In this document: piece after piece, positions 31,421 to 51,543 of the stretch
How the letters are laid out: every line of letters starts with the position of its first letter
Position numbering within the stretch: the first letter of the stretch is position 1
Assembly (NCBI GenBank): GCA_964030785.1
Contig: OZ034970.1
Span: 20,845,134 to 20,909,133 of the forward strand
Source: Siderastrea siderea
Lineage: Eukaryota; Cnidaria; Anthozoa; Scleractinia; Rhizangiidae
Direction: 5' to 3'
DNA: 64,000 bases
Program-made: the position numbers and the translations under genes
Notes under the pieces: generated by a model
Databases searched by the model: none
The model's input: the letters and a program-made list of their open reading frames with translations, nothing else
Told to the model about the DNA's origin: nothing

Positions 31421-31526
31421 TATTTCTTTATTCCACAGTTTAAATATATGAACTTCATATATTCATAATTTCATCTTCATCTTTCCCGGGTATATTACGA
31501 ACCAATTTCATGACCAGCTCCCAGTT

Positions 31527-31597
31527 GGCTTGTTAGCTCAATTGGTTATAGCGCTGCACCGGTATCGCAGAGGTCAGGGTTCGAGTCCCGGCAAGCC
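31527..31597 (+). tRNA. tRNA-like gene, anticodon GGT (Thr?) or tRNA-derived relic
   Basis: The 7 bp acceptor stem pairs GGCTTGT with GCAAGCC, including one G-T pair. An A-box-like TAGCTCAATTGG and a perfect B box GGTTCGAGTCC are present. The anticodon loop reads CCGGTAT, giving GGT. Oddities: position 33 is C rather than the near-universal T, there is a mismatch in the T stem, and the D stem is imperfect. It could be a weak or dead tRNA gene or a tRNA-derived SINE head. It sits alone in the spacer of the large palindrome. Confidence 0.6.
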
Positions 31598-31923
31598 CGA
31601 TTTTTTCAGGTTTTCTTTTCGCAACTGCATAAGTTGCGTTAATAACTGCGAGGATCTTCTCTACATTTATTTCAGTGAGTCATATTGTTTGATTAACTAT
31701 GCGGAGGGATTAAGTCAGGGAATTTAAATTTTTAGGGTGTATATTCTTTATAAGCGCATTTTCAATGAGACTGTGGATACGTTCGCGCATATTGCTGTAG
31801 TTCTGGAATTTCCTTGCACTCAGTTAATTATTAGTGAAGTTATGTAAGAGGATTGATAGTTGATTTTGTTGTTTCCTTTGCATAGTAGCAGTTACAGTAA
31901 CTTCAATATTGTTTTTCGACTAG

Positions 31924-32833
31924 ATGGTGGTTACAAATGGTTTGATGGCACGTTCTCTGATGGAGACTTCAAGGTTATCAAAAAAGACGACTGAGAGGGC
32001 TACGACGAGTGAGAAGGCTGAGGAAAAGAAAGATGAAGATCGGCCATCAGAAGACATCGATTATTCTGGGGCTTATCCTTGTCTACAAGAAGGATGCATC
32101 AGGGTCTTTCAAAGCCTATCTAACCTAAAGCGGCATCTTTCTGTGGAAAAATGTTCCCGTTCACTCGAGAGACTTTCCCTTTTAGACCTAGCAAAGGACG
32201 GAATACGCCGCAGTCCTACAGGAAGGAGTCTCAACTATGCCAACCCTCGAACCCACGTCAACGCTTTCGTTAGCCTCAGCATCTCCTAAGGAGAGATGGG
32301 CTCTGAAAGAATCGAGAAAGGCTTACCGTTTTAATGAGAAACAAAGAAGCTATTTGGAAGCGAAGTTTAATCTTGGGCAGTCGACGGGAAGAAAGGTTGA
32401 CCCTGACTTCGTGGCGAAAGAGATGAGGCGAGCCTTGGATTCAGATGGCAAACGACTATTCATACCATCTGAATTTCTCACAGTGCAAGAAATCTCGTCT
32501 TTTTTTGCTCGACTTGCGGCCAAACTTCGCCATCAAGTTGTTGCAACGGAAGATGACATTTGCGCTGTGGAGGAGGAGGCAAACTTTCAAACGGCAATAC
32601 AAGAGATTCTATCCGAGATTGAAGTAGAGAATCCCATTGTCTTCGACCAGTACAATCTCTGCGCTTTGGTCGTTAACATTTCATTGAAAAACTTGAAAAT
32701 GGGTTTGCTCGAGACGCTCTGTGAGAAATTGGAATTAGAGGTGTCTACTCAATCCGGCCGCAGAAAAAAGGCCCCGTATATTGCGGCGCTTAGTGATCTT
32801 GTTGCTGGTTGTTCCTGTGGCGGCCGCTCTTGA
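31924..32833 (+). pseudogene. Zinc-finger transposon-associated or unknown protein, frame-broken
   Basis: Two overlapping frames form one gene. The first (31924-32289) has an acidic/basic N-terminus and a zinc-finger-like Cys-x4-Cys...His-x5-Cys (PCLQEGCIRVF, LKRHLSVEKC). The second, open through 32237-32833 in +1, carries a helix-rich module (RRALDSDGKRLFIPSEFLT, then VQEISSFFARLAAK) that recalls a homeodomain-like or transposon DNA-binding fold, and a C-terminal helical domain. The break is one base, near 32205-32215, upstream of the second ATG. The last ~165 bp lie in the right palindrome arm and are duplicated in reverse in the left arm. I recognise the architecture as common in uncharacterised invertebrate proteins but cannot assign a function. 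The break may be genuine or an assembly indel. Confidence 0.6.
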
Positions 32834-35718: not shown

Positions 35719-36351
35719 CTACACCTGATTACCAGTCATTGGTATCACCATTTGATCCTTTTTTTTCACAACTGTTACATCACTGCTGGGAGAATGAAAT
35801 CGCAAAACGAAACCAGGTTCCTTTGAGAAAACGCCTTTCAGGCCGTCAACATTGATAGTGTAGCCTTGGTTGTCTGCCTGTGTAGGCGAACTGGAACTAG
35901 GAGATGGAGCTACGTATGCAGGCTGGTAAATAGGAACAGTAGGGACTAAAAAGAAAGGGGCGCTAATAAAAGCTTGAGGAACACGCCCAACCTGTGGACT
36001 GAAGTACTGAGGAAGCTGGGGGTGCTTTGTGCTATTGTCTTTCCATAACTGAGCCGTAACCTTTGAAGCATTTCTTTTATTTCCAACTCCCTCAATGCCT
36101 GGAGCTGACGTTCTCGGCCGGTGAAGGCAGAGATCTGACCTTGTTTCTCCTCCAAGCTGGACATCAATGCTGGATTAATTTGATCTGAGATTTCTACAGG
36201 TTCTGTATTGTAGTTTTTATCTTGACCCATCTTGTTCAACGCACCAAGCAGCTTATCCTCAATCGCATGGCTTGTTTTTCTCTTATCTTCTTCTGGTTCT
36301 TTGTCATCAACGTCTTCACTTTCGTCATCCTCATCCTCCTGAGGCAAAGAT
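35719..36351 (-). CDS. Predicted secreted acidic protein, 3' half of exon 2 (split by Polinton)
   Basis: This is the minus-strand continuation of the coding exon that stops at 50892 on the far side of the Polinton. When the Polinton and one AAAGAT copy are set aside, the reading frame runs through without shift. It begins with a strongly acidic block (EDEDDESEDVDDKEPEEDK), then a helical Gln/Leu-rich part, then a Pro/Tyr/Ser-rich tail ending at a stop at 35719-35721. A one-base break in a short A run near 36045 separates the acidic-helical part from the Pro-rich tail, where the second frame continues sensibly. Together with 52124-52196 and 50892-51543 this gives a protein of about 450 residues. 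No family recognised. Confidence 0.6.
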
Positions 36352-36983
36352 AGTAGTTTGATGTTTGAGCGTACGAGCGCACTTTAGTAAAATCTTCATC
36401 TAAATTTAACTGGAAACTTTCCAGTCAAATCTCCAGAGCGTACGAGCGCACTTTAGTGAAATCTCAGTCAAAATTCTTGGAAAAAATGCGTTTGTACCCC
36501 CAGTCAAATCTTTAGTGAAATTTAACTGAAAGAGCGCCCAGTTAAATTTTAATTTAATTTAATGAGGAAGCACCCCCAGTCAAATCTTCACAAATGAAAT
36601 CTAAATCTTCACACACACACACACTTGAATTAGGCATTAGTCCAATGGTTTCCTCAAGCTTGTATTTAATAGATAAAGGGAGTTATATCATTCATATCGA
36701 GCGAATAAATTTTTCACTTTAATTGGAGCGCACCTAGTCAAATCTTCACAAACACTTAGCTGAAAATTTGACTGAAAAAATATTCAAAGTCTATTATGAC
36801 CGTAAGCATAACTTGTCACACCATTTTTATGAATATATCTTTTATCATCGAAGCAGCTGAGTGATGTTTTATTCACCACATAGCTACCAATTCGATGTTT
36901 TTCACTTTTGATTAGTCTCATCGTGTGACGCATCTGTTTCTTATTGAAAAGCGTATCTTTGTAATTGTCGTGTTGTATTTTTT
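36352..36983. repeat. Polinton left terminal inverted repeat (632 bp)
   Basis: Inverted copy of 50260-50891. The outer ~430 bp consist of repeated short words (GTCAAATCTTCAC, AGTGAAATTTAACTG, GAGCGTACGAGCGCACTTTAG) and a (CA)n tract. The inner ~200 bp (36784-36983) duplicate, on the minus strand, the 3' end of the polymerase gene including its stop codon. The duplicate has no upstream frame and cannot encode a polymerase. Confidence 0.95.
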
Positions 36984-37154
36984 ACTCGCGTGACTTCATA
37001 CAACAGGGACTTTCCCGAGGAAATGAGTCATCAGATTGTTATGTAATATCAGATGAACTTGTATTTGAAGTAAAGTTTATTAGTAAAGTTTGTTAGTAAA
37101 GTTTGTTATTTCTTAGAAAAGTAGACTTGTGCTATATAATGAATGAAAGAATAT

Positions 37155-38846
37155 CTATGGCACTCTATATTCAATTGACAGTAACAGTTCCACATTTTTT
37201 ATAACCGAACCCAGTTCTACAGCTAAATGACCAAACGCTAGTACTAAATTGATATTTATTGTCTGTGATTTAGTTGATTGGGTTGAAGTGTAAGTGATTG
37301 ATTGAGTTAAATGGTCACTGTGTTTTATTTTTAAAGAAATAGGTGTATATCGTCTTTTGACTTTGAAATAGAGCACTGTTATAGTTAATATATGGCTATG
37401 ATTTGGAATAATTATTTTGTCACAACCGTTTAATAAAAATGTGTTCCCATTTTTTGTATTCAAAATCCCATTTATGTAATGAACGGAACCACGCAAACGA
37501 TGTCCGTTTAAAGATAAATCTGTTTCCATCACCAATTTTCCATTCTCAATTACAAAAGCGGTGTCATAGACACTTGGGTCAACATTTGAAATTGTTTCTT
37601 TAACACCATAGACAATTAAATGCCCAATTGTTAATAACGATTGCTTACTAACTGTACCGTGCAGATCGAGATATATAAATTGTGGGGGTGAGCTACCCCA
37701 TCTGTGAAAATGGATAACTGTTTTGGTGTACTTCTCAAATGTTTTGGTTGTTTCATCAGAAATTGAAATCGTTGTTCCTTGAGCTGTTACACTTATCTCA
37801 TTCATTTCCGGCGGAAACCATTCAACGACCATTGTGTAATACCCGACTGGAAGTTTATATAAGTTAAAACCAAGACGTGAGCGGTACTGGAAGGGTGAGC
37901 TTTTTTCAAACAAGAGTTTAAGTTGGTAAGCTTTTTTATTAATTTGATGTGGAGAATTAGGAAAATCGACAATACCCAAAACCTCGATATTGTTTTCACT
38001 CGAAGATTCATCAGTGTCTTCCATCAAGTATCTGAAGGCGTCTCGTTTTTGTCCTGAGTTATTGATCTGAGATTCACGAATTTTTTGAGTGACAAGATTT
38101 CTCAAATCTTTTATTTCCTCTTGCACAAAATCAACATTAACTGCGGATTTTGAATCTCTGTAGTCGGTTTGTAAGTTAATAATTTTATTGTTATTTAAAT
38201 TTAAGTTTCCAGTCATATTGTTAGTGCCATCAACTTTGAGAAACTTTTTTTGTGTCATGTCATCAATTCTGTTGTTAACAAACTCGACACATGCGGCGTC
38301 TCTTTGGTTTGATGGAAGATCAAGATTGATAATTGAATTATTTTTCATATCAATATCAGATCCTTTATCCAGTTTTTTTTCAAGCTGATTTTCGACATAC
38401 TTTTTATTAACACAATGGTCTGAATTAACTGGATCTTTCACATTTGTGATGAAATTATTGTTCATGTTAATAGATTGCTTCATCAAGCCTCCTTCCTCCT
38501 TTGACAAGAATATCTCCCTTTGCGTTTCATAACTAATAACCTTGTTGAGATTACCTTGAACTGGGTAATTGTCTTTTGGGACAACAAGCGACCCTGTCAT
38601 CGTATCACCTGTCTTTTTCACAAACTGAGTTGTATCCGCACTTGGAATCTTAGCTATTTCACTATCTAACTGGCTTTTTGTAACCACATCATTATTATTG
38701 GTTCCTTGTTTTACATTCACTAATTTTTTATTCTGCATATCATAATCATTATTAGCATCTAATTTAAATCCAATACCAGGTAAACCTCTAACACCTCTCA
38801 CAGCTGTAGAATGCTTGTAATTTAATACTCCGTTGTAGAAACTCAT
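37155..38846 (-). CDS. Phage-tail-fibre-like / fibre protein of the Polinton
   Basis: 563 residues. The N-terminus has a short collagen-like Gly-X-X run (residues 18-26, GVRGLPGIG). Residues 36-245 hold four degenerate repeats of the form (D/N)-M-x-N-x-x-I-x-N-[VL]...-V-x-x-x-[YF]-V, at about 36-63, 127-155, 166-195 and 215-245, plus two GD/N-x-MTG-x-L boxes (residues 80-86 and 210-215). These are signatures of bacteriophage trimeric tail-fibre shafts. The remaining ~310 residues are beta-rich and would form a knob. By position and architecture it is a candidate virion spike or attachment protein, analogous to the adenovirus fibre; that role is inferred. The start ATG sits in the AATAAAATG context shared with other genes of the element. 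Confidence 0.75.
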   Translation of the reverse strand: MSFYNGVLNYKHSTAVRGVRGLPGIGFKLDANNDYDMQNKKLVNVKQGTNNNDVVTKSQLDSEIAKIPSADTTQFVKKTGDTMTGSLVVPKDNYPVQGNLNKVISYETQREIFLSKEEGGLMKQSINMNNNFITNVKDPVNSDHCVNKKYVENQLEKKLDKGSDIDMKNNSIINLDLPSNQRDAACVEFVNNRIDDMTQKKFLKVDGTNNMTGNLNLNNNKIINLQTDYRDSKSAVNVDFVQEEIKDLRNLVTQKIRESQINNSGQKRDAFRYLMEDTDESSSENNIEVLGIVDFPNSPHQINKKAYQLKLLFEKSSPFQYRSRLGFNLYKLPVGYYTMVVEWFPPEMNEISVTAQGTTISISDETTKTFEKYTKTVIHFHRWGSSPPQFIYLDLHGTVSKQSLLTIGHLIVYGVKETISNVDPSVYDTAFVIENGKLVMETDLSLNGHRLRGSVHYINGILNTKNGNTFLLNGCDKIIIPNHSHILTITVLYFKVKRRYTPISLKIKHSDHLTQSITYTSTQSTKSQTININLVLAFGHLAVELGSVIKNVELLLSIEYRVP

Positions 38847-38858
38847 TTTATTAACTCT

Positions 38859-39503
38859 TCAGATTATTTTAGTGAAATTTTTTGCGGTGAATTTTCGTGG
38901 CTTATCAACATACATAAAAGTGTACGGTTCTTTTGTTGCTGAGAGGTAGTCGTCTTTGTTAATGGTCAATTCTTGACATATCCTACTCTGCTCATTCTTG
39001 CTTGGAAAATCGAAAATGCAGTAATGGGAACAGTTTAATCTGATGGTTTTGTCTGTATTGTAAAAAGACTGAGACAGATAGATACAGCTGCAATTTTTAT
39101 TTCGAGAGTTTGTGAAATAGTTTCGTATCTCTTGATCATTTTTGGTTCCGGTGTTGAGGTAATCATCGAAAATGATTAACTTTTGATTTCCATCATTCAT
39201 ATTAGGTAAAGGAATTATCTCACCGTCGCTAGCTTCAATGATATTATAACCGTATTTTTTTGAAAGAGGTTCAAATGTTTGTAACAAATATTGATACTTG
39301 TTCTGTTGCAAGTTTTTAGCATATAGATAGACCTTGTCAAAAAATAACAGGGGTTTGTTTATCATGTGAAGCAAAAGATTGGTTTTACCACTCCCACTCG
39401 GAGCGCAAATCAACATTCTGAAGCATCTATCAGGCATGAAAGGATACAACTGGGTGAAATTACTGTCTTTATCACCTTCAACGTCATAGTTTGGTATTTC
39501 CAT
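38859..39503 (-). CDS. DNA-packaging ATPase (FtsK/HerA, A32-like)
   Basis: 214 residues. Walker A is APSGSGKTNLLLHM near residue 35. Walker B is KLIIFDDYL near residue 110, with a downstream Asn/Ser-rich sensor region (YLSQSFY). Length and motif spacing fit Polinton and adintovirus packaging ATPases, which drive genome entry into the capsid. Its stop codon is 12 nt upstream of the fibre start on the same strand, so the two are probably co-transcribed. The start codon has the CAATAAAATG context. Confidence 0.93.
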   Translation of the reverse strand: MEIPNYDVEGDKDSNFTQLYPFMPDRCFRMLICAPSGSGKTNLLLHMINKPLLFFDKVYLYAKNLQQNKYQYLLQTFEPLSKKYGYNIIEASDGEIIPLPNMNDGNQKLIIFDDYLNTGTKNDQEIRNYFTNSRNKNCSCIYLSQSFYNTDKTIRLNCSHYCIFDFPSKNEQSRICQELTINKDDYLSATKEPYTFMYVDKPRKFTAKNFTKII

Positions 39504-39645
39504 TTTATTGATTCACAACAGAATTTTTTCTCAATAATTTTATTCGACACGCCATGCGACACACCATGCGACACGCCATGCGAGTTTTTTTATATTCAAT
39601 AACCCATTTTTATCCAAAAATAATATTTTGTTTCAATTAAATAAA
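39504..39645. promoter_or_regulatory. Divergent promoter region with 12-bp tandem repeat
   Basis: This is the only head-to-head intergenic gap in the Polinton, between the minus-strand ATPase and the plus-strand gene at 39646. It contains three tandem units of GACACGCCATGC (about 39547-39582, one with an A for G change) and then a T-run and AT-rich DNA. Both flanking ATGs lie in AATAAAATG. It is probably a bidirectional control region; no transcription data. Confidence 0.55.
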
Positions 39646-40632
39646 ATGAGTCTCCTCAAGTGGAAAGAGATGGCTGAAAAAAGATCGAAAATCGGTCAAT
39701 ATATCAATACTATAAGGGAAACGCTGAAACAAAAGAAAATAACCGATACAATGAGTGATGTTGAAGCAGAGAAGCTTTTCAAACCGATAACATCCGGTTT
39801 GAAGGAGTTGACGCAACCTCAACCTATTAAAAGACGATTACAAAGGAAAAAAGCAGAGGTTCCAGATTATGGTATCAATATAGAAGATGAAGGAATACCA
39901 GATTACAATCTTGAAGATTTGTTTGATGAAGGGGTTGAACCACAAAATACGAAACAGCTTGTTCCAAAACCACCCTCTTATGATGAGGTTCTCAAAGATT
40001 TGGAAACAGGAGAAAAGAAAATATATATCAATCCGGAGTATATGCAACAACTTGAAGACCCCCCAGAATATGAAGTTCCAGATTATGAGATTTTTGAAGA
40101 AGATAGAATAAATGAGACTTTAGATGAACTTGGAATAACCAACTATGAGGACATTGAAGCACAACTCAAAAGGGATGACATGACAGAAAAAACAAGGCAT
40201 TCTTTCTTGTCAAAGAAAATCGAAAATGCGGTCAAGAAAAGACAACAACTTCCAGGTTACAAAACACACATTACAAAGCAGTTGAATAAAGGTTTGATAA
40301 GCCAATCTGAAGCACAGTTCAGAAGAAAGGTTATTGACGACGCTCGAAAAGTTCTCAACGATTATATCAACTATAACAAAAATAAGTTGAAGAGTATTAA
40401 AGGCTCTGGTCTTAAAAGAAAGCCAACAAAGCGAGGTGGAAATGCAAGTGTTGTTTTTCTTAATCCTAAAGAAGCCCTCAAAAAGTTAGAGTTAATTGTT
40501 GGATCAATTGGTGCTGGTAATAATAGCATAGAGCTTAGAAACACCGGTGTTGCTATTCTCGATATTTTATTGAGAAATTACATAATCAACAAACATCATT
40601 ACAACAAAATTTATAAAAACTTTTTCATGTGA
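39646..40632 (+). CDS. Polinton virion-associated protein with PPxY motif and adenain-type site
   Basis: About 328 residues from the ATG at 39646 (TTAAATAAAATG). Charged and helical, with repeated acidic VPDY/IPDY segments, a PPSYDEV late-domain-like motif near residue 115, and IKGSG (40396-40410), which fits the adenovirus protease consensus (M/I/L)-x-G-x-G. A basic patch (KRKPTKRGG) follows this site. The C-terminal ~75 residues are helical and may form a separate mature product. It occupies the place of a core or minor capsid protein, but I cannot name a family with certainty. Confidence 0.6.
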   Translation: MSLLKWKEMAEKRSKIGQYINTIRETLKQKKITDTMSDVEAEKLFKPITSGLKELTQPQPIKRRLQRKKAEVPDYGINIEDEGIPDYNLEDLFDEGVEPQNTKQLVPKPPSYDEVLKDLETGEKKIYINPEYMQQLEDPPEYEVPDYEIFEEDRINETLDELGITNYEDIEAQLKRDDMTEKTRHSFLSKKIENAVKKRQQLPGYKTHITKQLNKGLISQSEAQFRRKVIDDARKVLNDYINYNKNKLKSIKGSGLKRKPTKRGGNASVVFLNPKEALKKLELIVGSIGAGNNSIELRNTGVAILDILLRNYIINKHHYNKIYKNFFM

Positions 40633-40643
40633 ATATATTAAAA

Positions 40644-41414
40644 ATGCAACTACCATTAGTGTTATCTTCTCATAACGTCAAGAAACAAACAAAAAATAAA
40701 CCTAGCGATTTTACAATTAGATATACCCAACCGATAATACTTGATCCAAACAAACAATATGAACTCGGTTTAGGTCGAATCATATCGATGTCTTTCACAT
40801 GGTTCAATATCACATCAGAGTTGAACAACCAAACAATAAAATACTCTTCCGATGGTGGGAAAACTTGGAAAGATATAACCTTTCCACCAGGTACATGGAA
40901 TTATGTTGGTTTCAATGATTTTATCAAGAAAAAGACAAAAACAAAGACTTCAGATAAAACTTCATATCCAATAACCTTGAAATTCAACAACACAACTTTC
41001 AAAACAACAATAAATCTCGCACCAAACTATCAACTAGACCTCACAACATCAAATTTCAGAGATCTGATCGGTTTCAACAAACAAATTTTGACCCGTTCTG
41101 AAAATGTTGGTGACTACACACCAAATCTCAGTCAAGATACAGAGATTTTGAATATACATTGTGATCTTATTTCAGAGAGTCTTGTTGATGAGGATGAGAC
41201 AGATATCATCTACACATTTGGCACAAATGATTTACAACCATCCTATGCTTTCACTAAAGAGCCTTTAAGAGTTCAATATTATCCAGTCAACAAGTATATC
41301 ATAAACACCCTACGGATATACATCACCGATGGTAAACGACGAATAATAGATTTGAATGACGCTGATACCGCATTTTCTCTAATTTTGAGAGAAAAAAAAA
41401 ATTATAAAAGATAA
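40644..41414 (+). CDS. Polinton minor capsid (penton-like) protein
   Basis: About 256 residues from the ATG at 40644 (TATTAAAAATG); the open frame begins just upstream. Beta-rich with the segment FTIRYTQPIILDPNKQYELGLG, which I recognise from cnidarian Polinton minor capsid proteins expected to form a single jelly-roll penton at capsid vertices. It starts 12 nt after the stop of the previous gene, in the -1 frame, without the need for frameshifting because it has its own ATG. Followed after 7 nt by the next gene. Confidence 0.7.
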   Translation: MQLPLVLSSHNVKKQTKNKPSDFTIRYTQPIILDPNKQYELGLGRIISMSFTWFNITSELNNQTIKYSSDGGKTWKDITFPPGTWNYVGFNDFIKKKTKTKTSDKTSYPITLKFNNTTFKTTINLAPNYQLDLTTSNFRDLIGFNKQILTRSENVGDYTPNLSQDTEILNIHCDLISESLVDEDETDIIYTFGTNDLQPSYAFTKEPLRVQYYPVNKYIINTLRIYITDGKRRIIDLNDADTAFSLILREKKNYKR

Positions 41415-41421
41415 TTATAAA

Positions 41422-41805
41422 ATGATAGCGCGCAATTACAAACGAATTTATCATCCGAGTCTTGGAAGATTTGTTTACAAACACAAAGGATCTGGTTTGA
41501 TTGTGGACAATATTTTCAAACCGACAGAAAGAATTATGAGCACAGTTTTGAAACCTCTCGCTGAAAAAGCTTTGAAATCGGGAATAGAAAGTGCTGGTGA
41601 TAAAATTGGTAAAAAAGTTGTTGAAAAAGTTGCTGAAAAATCAGGCCATCTTTTCATAAAAGACCTTCAGTCTTTGGGAAAACAAGTTCCAAAAGCAACA
41701 AACAAACAAAAAGAAGAAGATTACAACGTGATATTGAATAGATTGATTTCTGGAAGCGGGTATAAAAAAGATAAAATAAAAAAAAAGTTTCAAACAGATA
41801 AATAA
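41422..41805 (+). CDS. Small basic virion protein with GSG cleavage motif
   Basis: 127 residues, basic, with a predicted amphipathic helix in the middle (VLKPLAEKALKSGIESAGDKIGK). Near the C-terminus ISGSG (41746-41760) fits the adenain cleavage consensus, and KGSG near residue 22 is similar but lacks the hydrophobic residue. The start codon has a TATAAAATG context. Position between penton and hexon homologues suggests a minor virion protein comparable to adenovirus pVI; this is inferred from context and the cleavage motif. Confidence 0.6.
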   Translation: MIARNYKRIYHPSLGRFVYKHKGSGLIVDNIFKPTERIMSTVLKPLAEKALKSGIESAGDKIGKKVVEKVAEKSGHLFIKDLQSLGKQVPKATNKQKEEDYNVILNRLISGSGYKKDKIKKKFQTDK

Positions 41806-41809
41806 AAAG

Positions 41810-43098
41810 ATGACTTTCAGAACAAGTGATAAACTGCAGAGATATGAAATGGTCAGATTCTCCCTTGACAATATCATTGAACAACCTGGAAACAACAATT
41901 CTCAGAAAAAAACAGGATATAAATTCACAATAACAGACAGATCCACTTTTTTTGATTATTTCAACGGATATTTCGAGGTATCCAAAGAGCTCCAAAGAAA
42001 GCCGATGGAGCCGGTTTTGCAGCTGCTGACCGAATTTCAATGATTAATGGGTCACATTCTCTCATCAAACACATGGTTATCAAATCTGCTGGTAAAATAG
42101 TGTACGATAGTGACAACGTTCATAGAATCGCAAATGTTAAAAATTTGCTGGAGTATAGTGATGATTTCAGCAGGTCGGTTGCTAAAAATAGTTTTTGGTA
42201 TCTTGACACAGATGATTCAACAGCAAATACAAATTTGGGTTTTGAAGCGAGGCGACTTTTAACTCAAGCAAAACAGAACAATGGTGGTGGTGGAGCCAAA
42301 AGCATAAATGAGATCATTCCGTTGAACAGATACAGTTTCTTTGAGGAATTGGAAGACAAGATGCTTCCTCCCATGCAGCTCACATTCGAACTGGACTTGA
42401 ATAATGATGATGAATTGATTCACAAAGCAGCTGCTGCTGATGATGGGCGGGTGGTTGTCACTCAACTTTATCTTTGGCTTCCAAAAATGGTTCCGAAAGA
42501 TAGTGCATACGGTGAATTTGTGAAAGATTTTCTCAAACCAACCAAATGGACGTACATGAAAGATATGTATATTCAGAGTGCGAATACAAGAGCAGTTCAA
42601 AACATGTTTCAAATTAGCCCAGCCATTGACAATGTTAAACATGTATTCATTTATTTACAGAGAACTGATGGTCCAAACAATGAGGAATCTGAGAGAACTC
42701 CTTACGTTTTTGATACTTTCAAGCTGAATCCTGCAGATGCTAATAGCTCTCTTGCATCATGTCGTTTGGAGTATGGAAACAGTACTTTTTACCCTGAATT
42801 GGAGTACGACGCCGATTCAAAAGCGAGAATCTTCAACGATCTAATGTCTTATGATTTACGAAAGAATGATATAAACACAGGAACGCAGTTGGATATACAT
42901 AATTTCACATCTCTTTACGGTCTTGTCTATTTTGATCTGACCTACCAAAAAGAGGCTATTACTCGAGATCCAAAACAACTGATTTTGAACTACAGATTGA
43001 ATACGGCACCAACAGCTAATGTGAGAGCTCATGCCATCGTATTTTATGAAAGTGAGGTTATTGTCAACAAGGTTGGAAATGAACTTATGATGGTCTGA
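41810..43098 (+). pseudogene. Polinton major capsid protein (double jelly-roll), one-base frame break
   Basis: An N-terminal frame from the ATG at 41810 (about 65 usable codons, ending in sense at FDYFNGYFEV) continues in the -1 frame through 43098. The break lies about 41980-42005 in a purine-rich stretch. The second frame, open from 41956, carries INGSHSLIKH, VKNLLEYSDDFSRSVAKN and IPLNRYSFFEELEDKMLPPMQ, typical of Polinton hexon-like capsid proteins. Total length (about 430 codons) is normal. No -1 slippery heptamer lies between the last -1-frame stop and the zero-frame stop, so this is a mutation or assembly indel rather than recoding. Confidence 0.88.
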
Positions 43099-43157
43099 TT
43101 CAAAAACCAAAGTTGTGTTTTTCTTGAATTTATTTTATTTTGAGAGATAAAATAAAT

Positions 43158-43958
43158 ATGACTCAATTATATGAAATTAACGTTACGCTTTCCGACAATC
43201 AGAAAACGAATCTAAGTAAAGCTTTCCACAAACGTGAAACAATCATCTTGAGGTTAACAAAAGATGCCCTCAACGGAAGTGATACTCTTCATGTGCCTGC
43301 AACAACTGTGAAGAGGTTGGAAAAGAACCGTGCAATGAATAAGGGAATGGACATAAAACTGTCGAAGACAAACATTAGAAAACAGGTTGGTGGTTCACTT
43401 TTGAGTTCAATCTTGACACTTGGTCGAACTTTTGGACCAACATTAGCAAAGACTCTAGGTTTATCAGCTCTTTCCGGTGTTGCTTCTGAAGGAGCATCTC
43501 AGATTGTCAAAAAGATATCTGGAAGTGGTTTTCTCATTCCAAATTCCAAAATAGATCAACTTATCGCTCATAAACATCTATTGAGTGATAAACAGAAAAA
43601 GGATATTCTCAATGCCCTACAAACAGGCTCTGGAGTGAATATTAAACCCACAAAAAAACAAACGGGTGGTTTTCTTGGCACACTCTTAGCATCAATCGGT
43701 ATTCCACTCGCCCTTGAGGCTGTCAAAAAGATAACAGGTTCAGGAGGTCCCAGAATCGGAAGACCTCCTAAACAAGATGGTGGAGCAGCTCCCAGACTTG
43801 GAGTGTATCAACCACCACCTCCATTTTTTGGAACATGGGAACAAAACTCCGTATCCCATCAAGCAGGTGGTGGAAAAAAAAAAAAGTTGGGAAATGGGTT
43901 GCTTCTAGGGAAAAACAGTCCATTCAATGGGATTCCACTGTTGGGGACAATCCTTTGA
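43158..43958 (+). CDS. Polinton virion protein with GSG sites, overlapping protease
   Basis: 266 residues from the ATG at 43158. The N-terminal ~85 residues are a compact domain (INVTLSDNQKTNLSKAF, IKLSKTNIRKQ). Then come two hydrophobic helical segments (about 88-118 and 172-193), each followed by an adenain-type site (ISGSG 43515-43529 and ITGSG 43731-43745), Pro-rich sequence and a C-terminal hydrophobic peptide (GIPLLGTIL). It resembles adenovirus core or membrane-lytic precursors in layout. Near its end a run of twelve A (43874-43885) gives a -1 slippery site leading into the protease frame. Confidence 0.7.
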   Translation: MTQLYEINVTLSDNQKTNLSKAFHKRETIILRLTKDALNGSDTLHVPATTVKRLEKNRAMNKGMDIKLSKTNIRKQVGGSLLSSILTLGRTFGPTLAKTLGLSALSGVASEGASQIVKKISGSGFLIPNSKIDQLIAHKHLLSDKQKKDILNALQTGSGVNIKPTKKQTGGFLGTLLASIGIPLALEAVKKITGSGGPRIGRPPKQDGGAAPRLGVYQPPPPFFGTWEQNSVSHQAGGGKKKKLGNGLLLGKNSPFNGIPLLGTIL

Positions 43959-44416
43959 AATTCCACAAAGACATACCCTTGAGCAACCACGATCTGTTAA
44001 GATGGTGTCGCCATCTTAAAATACCAATAGACAAAGGTGGTGTGTTGTCAAGAGACCAAACTGTTCCACACAACCACAAAATGGCGCTATTCATTTTCAA
44101 TCTTGAGCCGTCATACATGAGTGGAAGTCATTGGGTTGCAACATATGTCAAGAATGGGAAAATCAATTATTTCGACAGTTTTGGGTTGTCACCATTTCAA
44201 GAGATTGTAAATCACGCAAAGAAAAAAAATCTAACTCTAATTCATCAAAATAACCAGATACAAGCCTTGAATACAACGACTTGTGGATACTTTTGTTTAT
44301 ACTTTTTGAATGAGATGAATAGAGGTGCGTCATATTTTGACCTTTTACAAGTCTTTGATGTGCATGATACCACGAAAAATGAGAGATTCATTGAAAAATA
44401 TTTCAAAAGTTTTTGA
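43835..44416 (+). CDS. Adenain-like cysteine protease (maturation protease)
   Basis: C5/C48-type fold. Catalytic His in SGSHWVATYV, the acidic residue in YFDSFG, the oxyanion Gln in NQIQALNTTT, and the nucleophile Cys in TTTCGYFCLYF. The conserved part starts at PLSNHDLLRWC, about 55 codons after the first in-frame ATG (43835). The frame overlaps the preceding gene by 124 nt in -1. Expression could start at 43835, or arise by -1 slippage on the A12 run at 43874-43885, giving a fusion of about 420 residues. It should cleave at the several (I/L)xGxG sites in neighbouring proteins. Start assignment is uncertain; family assignment is firm. Confidence 0.9.
   Translation: MGTKLRIPSSRWWKKKKVGKWVASREKQSIQWDSTVGDNPLKFHKDIPLSNHDLLRWCRHLKIPIDKGGVLSRDQTVPHNHKMALFIFNLEPSYMSGSHWVATYVKNGKINYFDSFGLSPFQEIVNHAKKKNLTLIHQNNQIQALNTTTCGYFCLYFLNEMNRGASYFDLLQVFDVHDTTKNERFIEKYFKSF
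43874..43886 (+). promoter_or_regulatory. Candidate -1 frameshift site A AAA AAG in an A12 run
   Basis: In the zero frame the run reads GGA AAA AAA AAA AAG. A -1 slip at the last heptamer continues as GTT GGG AAA in the protease frame. Both frames remain protein-like after the run: the zero frame ends in GLLLGKNSPFNGIPLL, and the -1 frame runs into the protease. No strong downstream stem was found, so ribosomal slippage or transcriptional slippage on the homopolymer are both possible. An assembly error in run length is a third explanation. Confidence 0.5.
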
Positions 44417-44440
44417 AAAATTTATGTAACCTTATTGTAA

Positions 44441-44602
44441 ATGAAAACGTATTGCGTTAAACAGAGGAAACAAACTGAGTGTGTTGAGCCTTCGGGCTAC
44501 AAATATGCAAAGAACGGTCGACTTATGTTCTTTTGCACATGCGCTGAATGTGGCATAACCAAAACCAGATTTGTGAAACAAATGGAGGTGCTGGGAAACT
44601 GA
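44441..44602 (+). CDS. Zinc-ribbon small protein (53 aa), frameshift donor for PLA2
   Basis: 53 codons from ATG 44441 (TTGTAAATG). Cys residues in YCVKQRK, TECVEPSG and CTCAECGITKTRF make a zinc-ribbon-like module (last pair Cys-x2-Cys, followed by G-x-x-K-T-R-F). I recognise this module at the N-terminus of cnidarian Polinton PLA2 proteins. The terminator TGA directly follows the heptamer G GGA AAC in the zero frame, so a -1 slip joins it to the PLA2 protein. Confidence 0.75.
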   Translation: MKTYCVKQRKQTECVEPSGYKYAKNGRLMFFCTCAECGITKTRFVKQMEVLGN

Positions 44603-45267
44603 TTGGCCCGTCTGAAGGGGCGGGCATTTTGGATACGATGGCATCGACCGGCACTGATATGTTAATTCAACACGGTATTCCTTGGCTTGGGAAAAAAGCT
44701 GTAGAGATGGGGCGTTATTACGGTAGTGAAGCTCTAAGGAACCCAAAACTTCAGAAAAAGGCTCTCGATTATGCTTTGGATAAGTTGAATCCAATGATTC
44801 AAAATGTTGGAAGTCAAGCTCTTGATCAATTATCAACCAAAATAAGACCAAATAGAAAGTATAAAACTGACAGGAAGGATTTGGATGGTGCTGGTGTTGA
44901 TATACATAAACTAATTGGGAAAATACCGAAACCAAAAGCTGGATGGACTCCTGGAAAGTATAAATACATGGGGCCATACAATCCTCTCGATAAACAGTTA
45001 GAGTATGATAGGAACACTGGAGAGGTCACCAAATGGTATGTACAACCTTACAATAAAGTGGATGAAATAGCAGCTCATCATGATATTTGTTATGATATGG
45101 GGAAAAACAAAGGTGAATGTGACAAGAAAATGGTTAAGTCATTAGATGAAATACCTTATGGAGAGATGCCAAAATGGGGACAAACCGCTCGGTTCTTGAT
45201 TAACACTAAGCAGAAACTGGGTCTCGGTGTAAAACAAAAGAAGCCAAAAAACGGAAAGCGGCGTTGA
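44548..45267 (+). CDS. Parvovirus-type phospholipase A2 domain protein
   Basis: The open frame begins inside the zinc-ribbon gene. Possible starts are ATG 44548, ATG 44638 (DTMASTG), or a -1 shift at 44593-44599. An N-terminal helical region is followed by LDGAG (44881-44895, adenain-type site) and then a PLA2 domain: calcium-loop-like YMGPYNPLDKQ and the catalytic HDICYD (AAHHDICYDMGKNKGECD). This domain in parvovirus capsids serves endosomal escape; here the role is inferred from homology. The C-terminus is very basic (KQKKPKNGKRR). Its stop overlaps the integrase frame, with A AAA AAC 12 nt before the stop. Confidence 0.88.
   Translation: MWHNQNQICETNGGAGKLIGPSEGAGILDTMASTGTDMLIQHGIPWLGKKAVEMGRYYGSEALRNPKLQKKALDYALDKLNPMIQNVGSQALDQLSTKIRPNRKYKTDRKDLDGAGVDIHKLIGKIPKPKAGWTPGKYKYMGPYNPLDKQLEYDRNTGEVTKWYVQPYNKVDEIAAHHDICYDMGKNKGECDKKMVKSLDEIPYGEMPKWGQTARFLINTKQKLGLGVKQKKPKNGKRR
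44593..44625 (+). promoter_or_regulatory. Candidate -1 ribosomal frameshift signal G GGA AAC with GC hairpin
   Basis: The heptamer GGGAAAC at 44593-44599 is in phase (CTG GGA AAC TGA). After a 6 nt spacer, GCCCGTCT (44606-44613) can pair with GGGGCGGGC (about 44618-44625) closing a GAAG loop: eight pairs including two G-T. This is unusually GC-rich for the element. Slippage enters the PLA2 frame at CTG ATT GGC. The same heptamer is used at retroviral gag-pro or gag-pol junctions. Confidence 0.7.
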
Positions 45268-45300
45268 GTAATTATGATGATTGGGCTCAACATTTAGCCG
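45246..45300 (+). promoter_or_regulatory. Candidate -1 ribosomal frameshift signal A AAA AAC with bulged stem
   Basis: AAAAAAC at 45246-45252 is in phase (CCA AAA AAC GGA), 12 nt before the PLA2 stop. After a 6 nt spacer, CGGCGTTGAG (45259-45268) can pair with CTCAAC (45286-45291) and GCCG (45297-45300), leaving a 5 nt bulge. Loop bases TAATT (45269-45273) could pair with AATTA (45304-45308), a possible pseudoknot. A -1 slip enters the integrase frame at CGG AAA GCG. Confidence 0.7.
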
Positions 45301-46208
45301 ATGAATTACATAAACCAATCAGACGGAAATTTAAAACTAGAAGAGTTATTGCAAACCACATTGACGAGATATGGTGTTCAGATATCGTTGAGATGCAAAA
45401 ATTCAGTCGATGGAACGCTGGCTACAGATATCTTCTTATGGTTCTAGATGTATTCTCTAAATACGGTTGGATCATCCCATTAAAAGATAAGAAAGGAGAA
45501 ACTGTTGCTCAAGCATTCAAAACAATATTCAAAGAAGGTAGAAAACCACAATATATTTGGACAGACAAAGGCAAAGAGTATTATAACAAACATGTTAAGG
45601 AACTACTTGATAAGAATAAAATAACCTTGTACTCAACTGAGAATGAAGAAAAGTCGTCAGTTTGTGAAAGATGGAACAGAACAATTAAAACCAAGATGTG
45701 GAAGCAGTTTACTGTTCAAGGTAATACACAGTATCTTGACATGCTACCTAAATTAGTGAAACAGTATAACAATACCAAACATTCAAGCACAAAGATGACA
45801 CCCACGGAAGCAAGTAAAAAGAAGAATGAAGGAACTGTCTACTTTAATCTATATGGTGATATGGAAACATTAAGACAAAAACCAAAGTTCAAAGTTGGTG
45901 AGAAGGTTCGAATATCTAAGTACAAACGTCCTGTCTTTGACAAAGGATACACAGCCAATTGGACAGAAGAAGTTTTTACAGTTGACAAGATACAATACAC
46001 TAATCCAATCACTTACAGACTTAAAGATCTCAGTGGTGAGGAGATATCAGGTTCTTTTTATGAACAGGAGATGCAGAAGGTTGTTCAAGACGTTTACCGT
46101 ATTGAGAAAGTGATTCGACGAGACGCTCGAAAAGGTAAAGCTTTGGTGAAGTGGAGCGGTTACCCAGAAAAATTCAATTCCTGGGTAGATATTAACAATC
46201 TAATTTAA
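45252..46208 (+). CDS. Polinton integrase (DDE) with C-terminal chromodomain
   Basis: About 318 residues if counted from the frameshift point. Retroviral-type integrase core with the DDE residues in WCSDIVEM, WTDKGKEYY and ENEEKSSVCERWNRT. Basic DNA-binding segment KVGEKVRISKYKR follows, then a chromodomain at the end (YRIEKVIRRDARKGKALVKWSGYPEKFNSWV without exceeding the usual ~35 residues). It lacks an in-frame ATG before the first catalytic Asp: the first Met is in DIVEM. The upstream frame overlaps the PLA2 gene in -1, so expression as a PLA2-integrase fusion by frameshifting is the simplest reading; a TTG start at 45264 is an alternative. It would integrate the element and make the 6 bp duplication. 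Confidence 0.93.
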   Translation, partial: RKAALSNYDDWAQHLADELHKPIRRKFKTRRVIANHIDEIWCSDIVEMQKFSRWNAGYRYLLMVLDVFSKYGWIIPLKDKKGETVAQAFKTIFKEGRKPQYIWTDKGKEYYNKHVKELLDKNKITLYSTENEEKSSVCERWNRTIKTKMWKQFTVQGNTQYLDMLPKLVKQYNNTKHSSTKMTPTEASKKKNEGTVYFNLYGDMETLRQKPKFKVGEKVRISKYKRPVFDKGYTANWTEEVFTVDKIQYTNPITYRLKDLSGEEISGSFYEQEMQKVVQDVYRIEKVIRRDARKGKALVKWSGYPEKFNSWVDINNLI

Positions 46209-46244
46209 AAATGATTTTTTTAAAAAATATTATATTATAATAAA

Positions 46245-46556
46245 ATGGCAACATTTATGACTTTTCAAGAGCTTCGAAAAATGGCTGTTGGAAAAAAAAT
46301 CAAAAACGCGCATAAGTTCTCAAAAGTAGAGCTGGCAAAAGCGTTAAATCTTGATGAAGGAGTGTTATACAAACCAGCAAATGCGAGGGAGGTGTTGCTT
46401 ACCAACGTTGAGACACAGATCGTCACGAAATACAAAAGCATCTATCAGTGTTCAAAAGTGTTGGGTAAAAAATACGGTTCGGTTCATTATTATGTAAACT
46501 GTGGAAATGAGTTTGTGGATAAGGATGGAAATAAGGTCAAATTGTCTTTTGCTTAA
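46245..46556 (+). CDS. Small protein with SAP-like and NUMOD1-like segments
   Basis: 103 residues, start in AATAAAATG. The N-terminal half (FQELRKMAVGKK, FSKVELAKALNL) looks like a SAP- or LEM-like helix pair. The C-terminal half (KYKSIYQCSKVLGKKYGS, HYYVNCG) resembles the NUMOD1 helix-turn-helix found beside homing endonucleases. Both are DNA-binding folds, so a replication or regulatory role next to the polymerase is plausible. Both assignments are by eye and uncertain. Confidence 0.55.
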   Translation: MATFMTFQELRKMAVGKKIKNAHKFSKVELAKALNLDEGVLYKPANAREVLLTNVETQIVTKYKSIYQCSKVLGKKYGSVHYYVNCGNEFVDKDGNKVKLSFA

Positions 46557-46633
46557 ACTTTGCTTGAACTTTTTCATTTCGCGAAACGTGGAAATGAAAA
46601 ATGATTTAAAAAAAAATATTGTTATACAATAAA

Positions 46634-49600
46634 ATGAATTCACAAAGAGTTCCTGAATTGAAAGCCTTTGCGAAAGCCTTTGCTAAAAACCTTAGGTTGA
46701 GAGGTTATTCACGCTTGAGAAAAGCGTTCGATACCGCAAAAGATAAGATAACAAATATTTTTAACAAGTCAACACCAACGCCGGCACCAAGACAACCCCC
46801 TAGCTTATTTGGTGAAGTACCTGAGATTAACGTCCCCATCCTCAAACCAACAGTTGTCACAACAACACTCAATAAGCTACCAAATGTGATTCAAAAAACG
46901 ACTGAAAACGTTATTAATTGGGAAGAGTGGTTGAAAAATGCAGATGAAGCAATTGAAGCAATTAATGCAACAAAAAATGAGAGAAAAAATGAGATAATGA
47001 ATATGTTCAAACTGACTTTCACACAGAAAGAACAAGCCTTGCGAGGGTTTACAAGATCATATGAAATTGGTATCATAAACAGACAAGACCCATTAATTCA
47101 ACTTCAGAACACCCGTTCAGTGATTAAGAACAATCTATTAAAGGTTCTAAATGAGATGAAAGGTCTCAAATTTAATGAAATGTTGAAAATTACGTTTGAA
47201 AAACAGAAAGGAGATGAGTTGATTGAAAAGGAAGCTTATTTCAATGCAAAGTCACAAAGAGTAACAAACGAGACAGAGATTGCAAACTTGTTGCAGATAA
47301 CACAACAACAGATTGTAAATATGATTCATCAATGGATTTCAGAAGGCTCAGGATGGACCATTCAATCAGTTGATGGTCATTTCATTAATGTTGTAAGGTA
47401 CAGACCACTCAGAGGTTCTTCATATATTCCATTACCCGCAGAGCTGCAGAACTCAGCTAAAGGGATTATAAACATGAAAAATAATGACGATGAATGTTTT
47501 CGTTGGTGTCACATTCGTCACCTCTTGCCACAGAATAAAGATCCACAGAGAATAAAAAAGTGTGATAAAAAATATATAGAAAAATTGGATTACTCGGGAA
47601 TTGAGTTTCCCGTTTCTGTAAAACAATACAACAAAATAGAGAAACAAAACAGTATTAATGTTAATGTCTTCGGTTATGAGGAAGGGCAACCGTATCCAAT
47701 TTACGTTTCAAAAGAAAAGTTTGACTCTCATTTGAATCTGCTCTTAATAACCGAACGAGAGGTGAAACATTATTGTTTAATAAAGGATTTCAATAAATTT
47801 ATGCACAATCTGAACGAAGCACAATGGAAGAAAGCATTTCTGTATGTATTGTCTCCAATGTTTAAGCTCGAAAGAGATCCTTGAAAAACACAAAGTCGAT
47901 TGTATTGAAATTAATGGAAAACAATCCATTAAAATGCCAAAACCTGGATCAAAAATTACATTCACAAATTATCATAAACAGTTACCAGCACCTTTCGTGA
48001 TTTATGCTGATTTTGAAGCCATCACTGAAAAAGTTGGTGAGAAAGCTCCGCAAAAATCTCACACCGAACAATATCAAAAACATACTGATTGTGGATACGG
48101 TTACAAAGTTGTATGTTGTTATGACGACAAATTTTCAAAACCAATCAAAGTTTTCAGAGGAGAAAAAGCTGTCCACAAGTTCATGAAGGATATGTTGGCT
48201 GAAGTTAAATACTGTCAAAAGGTTGTAAAAATTCACTTCACAAAACCTCTTGAAATGACAGACGAGGATGAGGAAAGTTTCCAAAGAGCTGAAGAATGTC
48301 ACATCTGCAAGAGACCTTATATCACAAGTGATGATAGAGTAAGAGATCACTGTCATATCACCGGTGAATACAGAGGCTCAGCACACATAGATTGTAATCT
48401 AAATTTCACATTAACTAATAAGATACCTGTGGTGTTTCACAATCTCAAGGGGTATGACAGTCACTTTATAATGCAAGAGATTGGTGGTATTGTGAAAAAG
48501 AATGCGTATTTTGATGAAGAAGGAAATAAACATGAGATGAGCATAAATGTCATTCCCTGTAACATGGAGAAATACATGGCCTTCATGTTGGGTCAACACC
48601 TTGTGTTCATCGACAGCTTTCAATTCATGAGCTCCTCATTGAGTAATTTGGTGAATAATCTTCCTGCTGAAGCGTTCAAACACACTGGACAAGTATTTCA
48701 AGGTGAAAAATTAAGTTTGATGACAAAGAAAGGTGTCTATCCTTATGACTATATGAATAGTTTTAAAAAGTTTGAGGACAGCAGGTTGCCGAAGAAAGAA
48801 GATTTTTTCAGTATTATGAATAATGAACATATCACAGATGAAGAGTATCAACATGCGCAGAATGTTTGGAAAACCTTCAACTTAAAGACAATGGGAGAGT
48901 ATCACGATCTCTATCTTCAATCGGATATTTTGTTGTTGACTGATGTTTTTGAAAATTTCCGCAAAGCATGTCAACAATACTATGGATTGGATCCTGCTCA
49001 TTATTTCACAGCACCCGGTCTGAGTTGGGATGCAATGTTGAAAAGGACAGAAACTGAATTGGAGTTAATGAGTGATGTTGATATGTTTCAATTCATTGAA
49101 AAAGGTATGCGTGGGGGGATCAGTTACATCGCCAATCGATATGGAAAGGCAAACAACAAGTATATGAAAAACTACAATCCAAAGGATGCAACAAAATACA
49201 TCATGTATCTGGATGCAAATAATCTTTATGGTTGGGCAATGAGTAAATATCTTCCAACAGGTGGGTTCAAATGGTTGACTGAGGAAGAGGTAGATTTATC
49301 TAAGTATAATGATGAGTCTGAAAAAGGATTGATATTAGAGGTTGATTTGGAATATCCAGAGGAGTTGCATGATCTCCACAACGACTATCCGCTGGCAGCA
49401 GAAAAAATCAAAGTAACTGAAGATATGTTGTCACCTTATTCTCGAGAAATTGCTGAAAAATTTGGAGTAAAGGTTGGACTGGTCGAAAAGTTGGTGCCGA
49501 CGTTGTCAAATAAAGAGAGATATGTTTTGCATTATCGCAACTTACAACTCTATGAATCTTTGGGGTTGAAACTGATAAAGATTCATAGAGCTCTCGAATT

Positions 49601-50459
49601 CAATCAGAGTCCATGGTTGAAACCTTACATCGATTTTAACACAAAAAAGAGAGCAGAGGCAAAAAACTCTTTTGAAAAGGATTTTTTCAAGTTGATGAAC
49701 AATTCGGTGTTTGGAAAGACGATGGAGAATTTGAGAAAGCGTCAGGACATCAGACTTGTGACTGATAAAGAAAAACTTTTGAAGTGGGCCAGCAGACCGA
49801 GTTTCATAAGCAGCAAAATATTTAATGAGGATTTAGTCGCCGTTCATAAAATCAAAACAACTTTAACATTGAATAGACCAGCCTATGTTGGAATGTGCAT
49901 CCTAGACTTATCAAAAACATTGATGTATGATTTTCATTACAATTACATCAAAAGTCAGTATGGTGACAAAGCAAAGTTGCTGTTCACAGATACTGACAGT
50001 TTAACATATGAAATTGAAGCAGATGATGTCTACCAAGATTTTTGGAAAGACAAACATCTATTCGATAACAGTGATAATCCAAAGAGCAGCCCATTTTTCG
50101 ATGCGACAAATAAGAAAGTCATTGGTAAATTCAAGGATGAGGCTTCAGGAATCCCAATTGTGGAGTTTGTTGGTTTGAGGTCAAAAATGTATTCTTACAT
50201 GAAAGATAATAAACAGGGCAGTCGCACAGCAAAGGGAATAAAAAAGAATGTGATAAAACAAAAAATACAACACGACAATTACAAAGATACGCTTTTCAAT
50301 AAGAAACAGATGCGTCACACGATGAGACTGATTAAAAGTGAAAAACATCGAATTGGTAGCTATATGGTGAATAAAACATCACTCAGCTGCTTCGATGATA
50401 AAAGATATATTCATAAAAATGGTGTGACAAGTTATGCTTACGGTCATAATAGACTTTGA
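46634..50459 (+). pseudogene. Protein-primed family B DNA polymerase, one-base frame break
   Basis: The ATG at 46634 is in ACAATAAAATG. The frame runs to 47884, and the polymerase continues in +1 from before 47844 to 50459; the break is at about 47828-47832. Exonuclease motifs: YADFEAITE (Exo I), NLKGYDSHFI (Exo II), YHDLYLQSDILLLTD (Exo III). Between Exo I and II sits a Cys/His module (CHICKRPY, VRDHCHITGEYRG, HIDCN) like endonuclease VII. Polymerase motifs: DANNLYGWAMS (A), NNSVFGKTMENLR (B), FTDTDSLTYE (C). The N-terminal ~400 residues before the exonuclease are charged and helical and could include the terminal protein. The last 66 codons and stop lie within the right terminal inverted repeat. 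Confidence 0.95.
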
Positions 50460-50891
50460 ATATTTTTTCAGTCAAATTTTCAGCTAAGTGTTTGTGAAAA
50501 TTTGACTAGGCGCGCTCCAATTAAAGTGAAAAATTTATTCGCTCGATATGAATGATATAACTCCCTTTATCTATTAAATACGAGCTTGAGGAAACCATTG
50601 GACTAATGCCTAATTCAAGTGTGTGTGTGTGTGAAGATTTAGATTTCATTTGTGAAGATTTGACTGGGGGTGCTTCCTCATTAAATTAAATTAAAATTTA
50701 ACTGGGCGCTCTTTCAGTTAAATTTCACTAAAGATTTGACTGGGGGTACAAACGCATTTTTTCCAAGAATTTTGACTGAGATTTCACTAAAGTGCGCTCG
50801 TACGCTCTGGAGATTTGACTGGAAAGTTTCCAGTTAAATTTAGATGAAGATTTTACTAAAGTGCGCTCGTACGCTCAAACATCAAACTACT
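50260..50891. repeat. Polinton right terminal inverted repeat (632 bp)
   Basis: Inverted copy of 36352-36983 and identical in length. Its inner ~200 bp are the 3' end of the polymerase gene; the outer part is non-coding with a (GT)n tract. Confidence 0.95.
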
Positions 50892-51543
50892 AAAGATGTA
50901 TGCTGCTTTTCTTTAAACGTACTGACTTCTTTACTTACATTCTCTTCTTCATCAAGTTTATCCTTGTCATTTGTAATACGTCCTAAGGAGGCTTCGTTAG
51001 CTTGCTTTCGGACTGCCTTTCCTACACTGAGGCGACCTGCGGCCGAATGATCCTCCTTTTCGCTATCATCAGAATCGTCTGTGATTAGCTTGTCTGTACC
51101 CAAGTCCTTTTCATCCTCCCTTAACTTCTCTAGCAAGGCCTCGTCTTGTATGGTATTCCTAGAAAGTGCACCGTCTTCAGTGAAAATTTCATCAAAATCC
51201 CCGTTAGGTGCGCCGGTCGGGTGCTTAATCCACAATACCTGTGGAACGCGAGCATTTGTCACATTGGATTGTCGCTCTTCTGGAGGACTTTTTGTGACAA
51301 TGTGCGAATGGGACTTATTAATTAATCTGTTACTCCTGTGTTGTTTTCTGAGTGGCCTTTTAAGCTTGTTTATCAATTTCACATTCTTCTTTATTAAGAC
51401 ATGCCGCCCTTTGCTTGTCACTCCACTGTTCTGTTTTTCTCTAACTTTCTGTGTGGTTGAGTATCGTGTGGCGGTTTTCGGCAATAATCCTTTGCTTGTT
51501 GTCGTCAAAATTGTTTGTCCAAATAGTTTTTTCGGTTGATGAC
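50892..51543 (-). CDS. Predicted secreted acidic protein, 5' half of exon 2 (split by Polinton)
   Basis: Minus-strand coding exon beginning after an acceptor (TTTTTTCAG|GT at 51546-51544). Its first two bases complete the codon left open by exon 1 at 52124. It encodes a basic, Lys/Arg/Thr/Ser-rich part (RPLRKQHRSNR) and then an acidic part (LREDEKDLGTDKLITDDSDDSEKED, read as two adjacent blocks). The frame runs to the Polinton edge and, set against 36345 and below, continues in frame. No domain recognised; low complexity resembles extracellular matrix or biomineral-type proteins, but this is only composition. Confidence 0.65.

Follow-up and report, generated by a model that had tools for sequence, protein, structure and literature searches.

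A Polinton-type DNA element in the genome of Siderastrea siderea is very probably read out as a zinc ribbon-PLA2-integrase polyprotein, by a -1 ribosomal slip at an A AAA AAC heptamer (site 2) that would follow a likely -1 slip at a G GGA AAC heptamer (site 1), and we put the probability of this reading, which is drawn from sequence comparison, at roughly 87%. In most cases translation would end with the zinc ribbon; some ribosomes would slip by -1 at G GGA AAC and produce zinc ribbon-PLA2, and some of the latter would slip again at site 2, thus adding the integrase. The evidence consists of direct observations of the heptamers, the frames, their conservation, two types of site 2, a hairpin at site 1, a stem in two families of copies, purifying selection and fused relatives, and from these we infer the slipping itself and its frequency. 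Two consecutive slips giving such a polyprotein, and a low integrase yield in keeping with retroviruses, had been proposed from the window alone (the window being the whole stretch of DNA analysed, 64,000 nucleotides long); the proposed slips gain support from the heptamers, kept in 68/68 copies at site 1 and 88/88 at site 2, and from relatives that carry the same parts in a single ORF.

The element and its reading frames

The element and the three frames of the proposed polyprotein are located in the window as follows.

36352-50891, no strand assigned: Polinton/Maverick (adintovirus-like) element, 14,540 bp, with TIRs and target duplication
44441-44602, forward strand: zinc-ribbon ORF, 53 aa, ending in GGA AAC TGA; PF18930 DUF5679 at 25.4 bits, slightly below the cut-off of 27
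44548-45267, forward strand: PLA2 frame, -1 relative to the zinc ribbon; PF08398, E 5e-8
45210-46208, forward strand: integrase frame, -1 relative to PLA2; rve E 8e-13, Chromo E 9e-7

The element has the long TIRs of Polintons/Mavericks (adintoviruses), a pair at 36351-36983/50260-50892 of 633 nt with 99% identity, and its outer ends, AGTAGTTTG.../...CAAACTACT, are flanked by the 6-bp target duplication AAAGAT at 36346-36351 and 50892-50897, as judged by eye. It also carries an rve integrase with a chromodomain, an adenovirus-type protease (Peptidase_C5, 21.5 bits against a cut-off of 21.3) and a packaging ATPase (Pox_A32, 39.2 bits against a cut-off of 22.8). By these features, and by its PLA2, it resembles adintoviruses and Polintons (Mavericks). 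The integrase frame also matches PFV integrase and other integrase chains, and the named matches among its relatives are Oculina patagonica, Stylophora pistillata and 'Stylophora coral adintovirus'; relatives were not found among virus contigs in two scans.

Across the copies of the element the zinc ribbon lies in phase 2 (65/66 copies), PLA2 in phase 1 and the integrase in phase 0, so that each step is -1; the exception is L011 (L-numbers designate individual genomic copies of the element), where the PLA2 frame changes within the gene.

The PLA2-integrase junction

One heptamer marks this junction in the window.

45246-45252, forward strand: slip site 2, A AAA AAC, in the PLA2 frame; a canonical heptamer in 88/88 copies read

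As originally noted, CCA AAA AAC GGA is read in the PLA2 frame (45244-45255) with the integrase in -1, AAAAAAC lies 12 nt before the PLA2 stop (TGA, 45265-45267), and the integrase frame has no ATG ahead of its first Asp, which we take to be catalytic, since its first Met comes directly after that residue. The arrangement agrees with a -1 frameshift site in three respects: the heptamer has the form X XXY YYZ and is read in the frame of the upstream gene, the downstream ORF is in -1, and the upstream stop comes soon after the heptamer. A search of the 831-Mb genome gave 128 integrase places scored from 3,562 first-look candidates, best-scoring places and not a random sample, none of which has a stop inside the integrase. 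The junction was read in 88 of these, comprising the best 68 and 20 hand-picked, lower-ranked and more divergent copies, and the comparison that the prediction had called for showed that every one of them (68/68 and 20/20) carries a canonical -1 heptamer, read in the PLA2 frame.

The heptamer is A AAA AAC in 39 copies, U UUA AAC in 48 and U UUA AAA in one (L036). In the 48 copies with U UUA AAC the A AAA AAC stretch is absent, U UUA AAC stands in its place, and TGA follows directly. The offset of site 2 from the integrase match is -27, -30 or -33, codon-sized indels shifting the heptamer with the PLA2 frame kept. The PLA2 stop lies 0 or 12 nt past the heptamer in 67/68 of the best copies and in 9/20 of the divergent ones, 36-39 nt past it in 1/68 and 10/20, respectively, and outside the piece in 1/20; L036, with the weaker U UUA AAA, has its stop 39 nt on. 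Over the rest of the PLA2 and integrase frames (65 distinct copies), 32,305 codons hold 137 in-frame canonical heptamers, and only 2 of these heptamers end in C. The site 2 heptamer is thus present more often than by chance, even if 88/88 does not amount to 88 independent events, because the copies are related. Read from the sequences, the type of heptamer has turned over and the putative slip site has been retained.

In-frame mRNAs could also be made by RNA polymerase slipping on a run of As, a very improbable explanation. The window's site 2 does hold six As, and transcriptional slippage is reported for an IS3-family element (PMC6211511), but U UUA AAC and G GGA AAC, with runs of at most 3 bases, occupy the same junctions.

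A spliced or separate mRNA that gives the integrase its start, the heptamers being incidental, is conceivable since the host is an animal. The window's family has two AGs at -67 and -64 with 59% pyrimidines upstream, and the U UUA AAC family has an AG at -18 with 53% pyrimidines. On the other hand, past -64 and up to +45 no AG in the window's family exceeds 41% pyrimidines, no acceptor-like AG is common to the three copies scored (L001, L016 and L037), and the canonical heptamer kept in every junction read is left unexplained, all of which makes splicing a distinctly unlikely source of the integrase.

Structure downstream of site 2

Two predicted structures follow the heptamer in the window.

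45259-45300, forward strand: predicted bulged stem of the window's family, spacer of 6 nt after site 2, from a minimum-free-energy fold
45278-45321, forward strand: possible pseudoknot pairing, TGATTGG at 45278-45284 with CCAATCA at 45315-45321, 7 bp

A bulged stem of 10 pairs starting 6 nt downstream had been described; the stem and its spacer are recovered in the predicted fold, but the number of pairs is not, the fold having 16 pairs in three helices. The stem in the window is an ordinary one, with 196/1000 synonymous shuffles as stable in 62 nt and 507/1000 in 92 nt. A pseudoknot had likewise been suggested, and a 7-bp pairing is possible, but 311/2000 synonymous shuffles also reach 7 bp, so it is not significant.

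Other families differ in this respect. Two of them, the U UUA AAC family (L036 included) and the A AAA AAC family of L037, have a predicted stem of 13 to 14 bp that closes a loop of 52 or 55 nt and starts 7 nt after the heptamer in 54/54 copies; the window's own family is without it. Over 92 nt, 0 to 5 synonymous shuffles per 1000 match it in stability (5 copies); windows of 62 nt lose the 3' arm and show no excess stability (310 to 572/1000). The 3' arm uses CGG codons, and CGG makes up 39 of the 1,598 Arg codons elsewhere. An A-C mismatch occurs in the stem in 45/49 copies of the U UUA AAC family, and covariation says little because the helices hardly vary. These comparisons were drawn from the best 68 copies. 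A stimulatory structure 5-9 nt downstream, expected of a -1 frameshift site, is predicted with more stability than in synonymous shuffles in these two families and at site 1 (see below), and not in the window's family.

The zinc ribbon-PLA2 junction

The first junction has a heptamer and a hairpin.

44593-44599, forward strand: slip site 1, G GGA AAC, directly 5' of the stop TGA at 44600-44602
44606-44625, forward strand: site 1 hairpin, 7 pairs (44606-44612 with 44619-44625), spacer of 6 nt after the heptamer

G GGA AAC is found in all 68 copies, 67 times at the expected place and once, in L063, displaced by extra sequence, and all of the 66/68 copies with an identifiable ATG for the zinc ribbon have it in the zinc-ribbon frame. 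Its preceding codon is ACG in 48 copies, CTG in 7, CCG in 4, TTG in 3, CAG in 2, ATG in 2 and GCG in 1, with ATG in L063; the codon thus specifies T, L, P, Q, M or A and always ends in G, a base that accounts for 19.9% of third positions elsewhere. The codon after the heptamer is a stop in 67/68 copies, including L063, the exception being L062 with GGG. The 7 pairs of the hairpin are identical in 67/67 copies and are present in L063 too, and between 0 and 14 of 1000 synonymous shuffles are as stable (z -2.5 to -4.8, 8 copies). As an observation on L063 itself, its PLA2 frame spans 316 codons, from -971 to -23 relative to the integrase match, and contains additional sequence that the other copies lack.

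PLA2, and perhaps the integrase too, may instead start at codons of their own through reinitiation after the upstream stop. The first PLA2-frame ATG after site 1 is at 44638 in the window, and such an ATG lies 45 nt past the start of site 1 in 51 copies and 66 nt past it in 13, together 64/67 copies. PLA2 thus has a possible start codon of its own with which site 1 could be bypassed, and the first slip is therefore less certain than the second. For the integrase, an in-frame ATG at -3, after the PLA2 stop, is present in 6/88 copies (L037, L039, L040, L041, L044 and the divergent L082), and one at -87 in 3/68 copies, but in 60/68 copies no integrase-frame ATG lies between the preceding stop and the integrase match. 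The layout of heptamer, stop, spacer and hairpin at site 1, kept beyond synonymous expectation, also speaks against reinitiation, as do database relatives with zinc ribbon and PLA2 joined in one frame (7/120 matches listed), and we consider this explanation unlikely.

One-frame fusions and protein relatives

PLA2 and integrase are not split in every relative. Among 88 places of the same genome scored for fusion by similarity to P0014, from 6,781 candidates, 11 match PLA2 and integrase within a single frame over 521-562 aa, and 5 of these are free of stops; the figure is not a census, and the zinc ribbon lies outside the matches. P-numbers designate relatives in a protein database that may also contain this genome. 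The junction was read at one fused place, where the two domains share a frame and the A run at the slippery site is not of the same length as in the split copies, which puts the join at the position of the proposed ribosomal slip. Of the 120 integrase matches listed, 35 have PLA2 and integrase in one ORF, as recognised by pattern, and P0014, P0016, P0115, P0269, P0270 and P0272 have zinc ribbon, PLA2 and integrase in a single ORF. These fused database ORFs are likely unspliced, because P0272 is of metagenomic origin and the start of P0006 and P0007 coincides with a TTG in the family's genomic copies, the choice of a bacterial ORF caller. Both the 11 one-frame places and the fused database relatives indicate that a fused product is natural. 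Homologous elements with an in-frame integrase start and no slippery site had been named as the counter-evidence to look for: relatives free of a frame change do exist, but as whole fusions and not as integrases with their own starts. The one-frame PLA2-integrase fusions in this genome show that the proposed slip would not be needed in every family and that split frames are not essential to this group of elements.

The protein relatives may retain traces of both types of site 2. KN or LN occurs within 25 residues after KLGLG in 105 of the 109 PLA2 homologues listed, compared with 1,068/4,880 control windows; 3 of the remaining homologues have neither and 1 is fused, and the 11/120 listed without KLGLG were left out. 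Such tails, protein signatures and not DNA, are expected from translating A AAA AAC or U UUA AAC. The minimum number of state changes on a quick tree of about 110 residues was 13 for fused/split and 9 for KN/LN, counts that are only suggestive since the elements may recombine. Cleavage motifs of what we take to be the adenain-type pattern lie before PLA2 in 51/99 homologues (the window's PLA2 frame left out), and at the PLA2-integrase junction in 0 of at most 55 fused proteins.

The fused places in this genome, and the broken DNA-polymerase-like frame of the window copy, would also fit split frames that arose by decay of a once-fused gene, with heptamers formed by chance from A-rich lysine codons. 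Against such decay, the integrase is open in all 128 scored places, with the sampling stated above, and the median dN/dS is 0.157 for PLA2 (78 pairs, 13 of 68 copies; median dS 1.09) and 0.117 for the integrase (37/78 pairs, 13 of 68 copies), 41/78 integrase pairs having been excluded on ungapped identity, on stops or on low dS. Among the pairs compared, purifying selection acts on the PLA2 and the integrase frames alike. Moreover, neither U UUA AAC nor G GGA AAC is a lysine run, and heptamers ending in C are almost absent elsewhere; decay is barely credible as the origin of the split, and the reading by two slips is retained.

Relation to known recoding systems

Double -1 frameshifting is known from retroviral gag-pro-pol, for example in MMTV and MPMV. 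The element resembles this system in having three ORFs in successive -1 frames with the integrase last, in its heptamers G GGA AAC and A AAA AAC with a short spacer and a downstream stem, and in a first product that is probably a virion protein. In contrast to it, the three frames here belong to a DNA element, where no reverse transcriptase was observed, PLA2 and not a protease forms the middle protein, the structure downstream of site 2 differs among families, and fused PLA2-integrase relatives are found in the same genome. Among Ty3/retrovirus and Tf1/copia elements, some lineages frameshift between structural protein and integrase and others have one continuous ORF, whereas here both states occur in related families of one genome and in a DNA transposon. 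We think it fairly probable that a dsDNA transposon/virus lineage evolved a full gag-pro-pol-like read-out, whose families swap heptamer and stem or hard-wire the PLA2-integrase fusion, within one animal genome.

The parvovirus PLA2 serves entry, so a PLA2 virion protein with an integrase would parallel Gag-Pol: the extension would carry the integrase into the particle on a minor PLA2 virion protein, as Gag-Pol carries the retroviral integrase. A self-synthesising DNA transposon would then use a retroviral translational trick to attach its integrase to an apparent virion protein, which would suggest how Polinton-like viruses get their integrase into particles, a question of interest because, to our knowledge, such particles have not been characterised in animals. 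If so, such integrases may be overlooked or cut short in annotation. This one genome, whose many copies fall into three states (A AAA AAC, U UUA AAC and fused), also offers a natural experiment on the gain and loss of recoding sites.

The catalytic domain of IS3-family transposases is rve-like. In that family a -1 frameshift produces the fused transposase OrfAB, as stated in PMC5771124; unlike the element described here, IS3 is bacterial and has two ORFs, one slip and no virion proteins. For adintoviruses, the relevant passages of a 2024 preprint (PMC11071296) propose -1 slips for Penton and Hexon-Adenain only, by KnotInFrame prediction, and the slips proposed here are located instead at the zinc ribbon-PLA2-integrase junctions. 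The frameshift passages of PMC10120064 concern assembly errors and search settings, and the main text of PMC8547959 does not mention frameshifting. The titles and abstract openings listed by searches on Polintons, Mavericks or adintoviruses, the founding adintovirus paper aside, describe no integrase frameshifting.

Other features of the element

Two further places in the element were considered as recoding sites and set aside. A third -1 slip at the A run in the overlap of the pVI-like ORF and the protease (43772-43958) is not clean, the step being -1 in 41/59 copies, 0 in 8 and +1 in 10, and the run varies from 7 to 17 nt among copies, with 1 of 60 copies lacking it. The DNA-polymerase-like gene of the window copy is broken into two frames (46610-47884 and 47814-50459), but at the split, 47814-47884, the ORF runs on in all 60 copies (4.4-kb pieces). 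The product of 47814-50459 may be a protein-primed DNA polymerase B, judging by its motifs; its only matches above chance in Pfam and PHROGs are to endonuclease VII, and nothing was found in NCBIfam or among solved structures. A putative double jelly-roll major capsid protein is placed at 41956-43098 by position only, and this candidate had no match in family searches.

The reverse-strand ORF at 37155-38858 encodes a 567-aa protein inside the element, adjoining the packaging ATPase, stretches of which match phage tail-fibre and head-decoration families; it is possibly a fibre-like surface protein. A small ORF at 46224-46556, between integrase and polymerase, has weak matches, below cut-offs, to NUMOD1/homing-endonuclease DNA-binding modules. 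To the left of the element, at 30000-34079, large inverted repeats with arms of 239-437 nt and 96-98% identity form a separate palindromic repeat or element.
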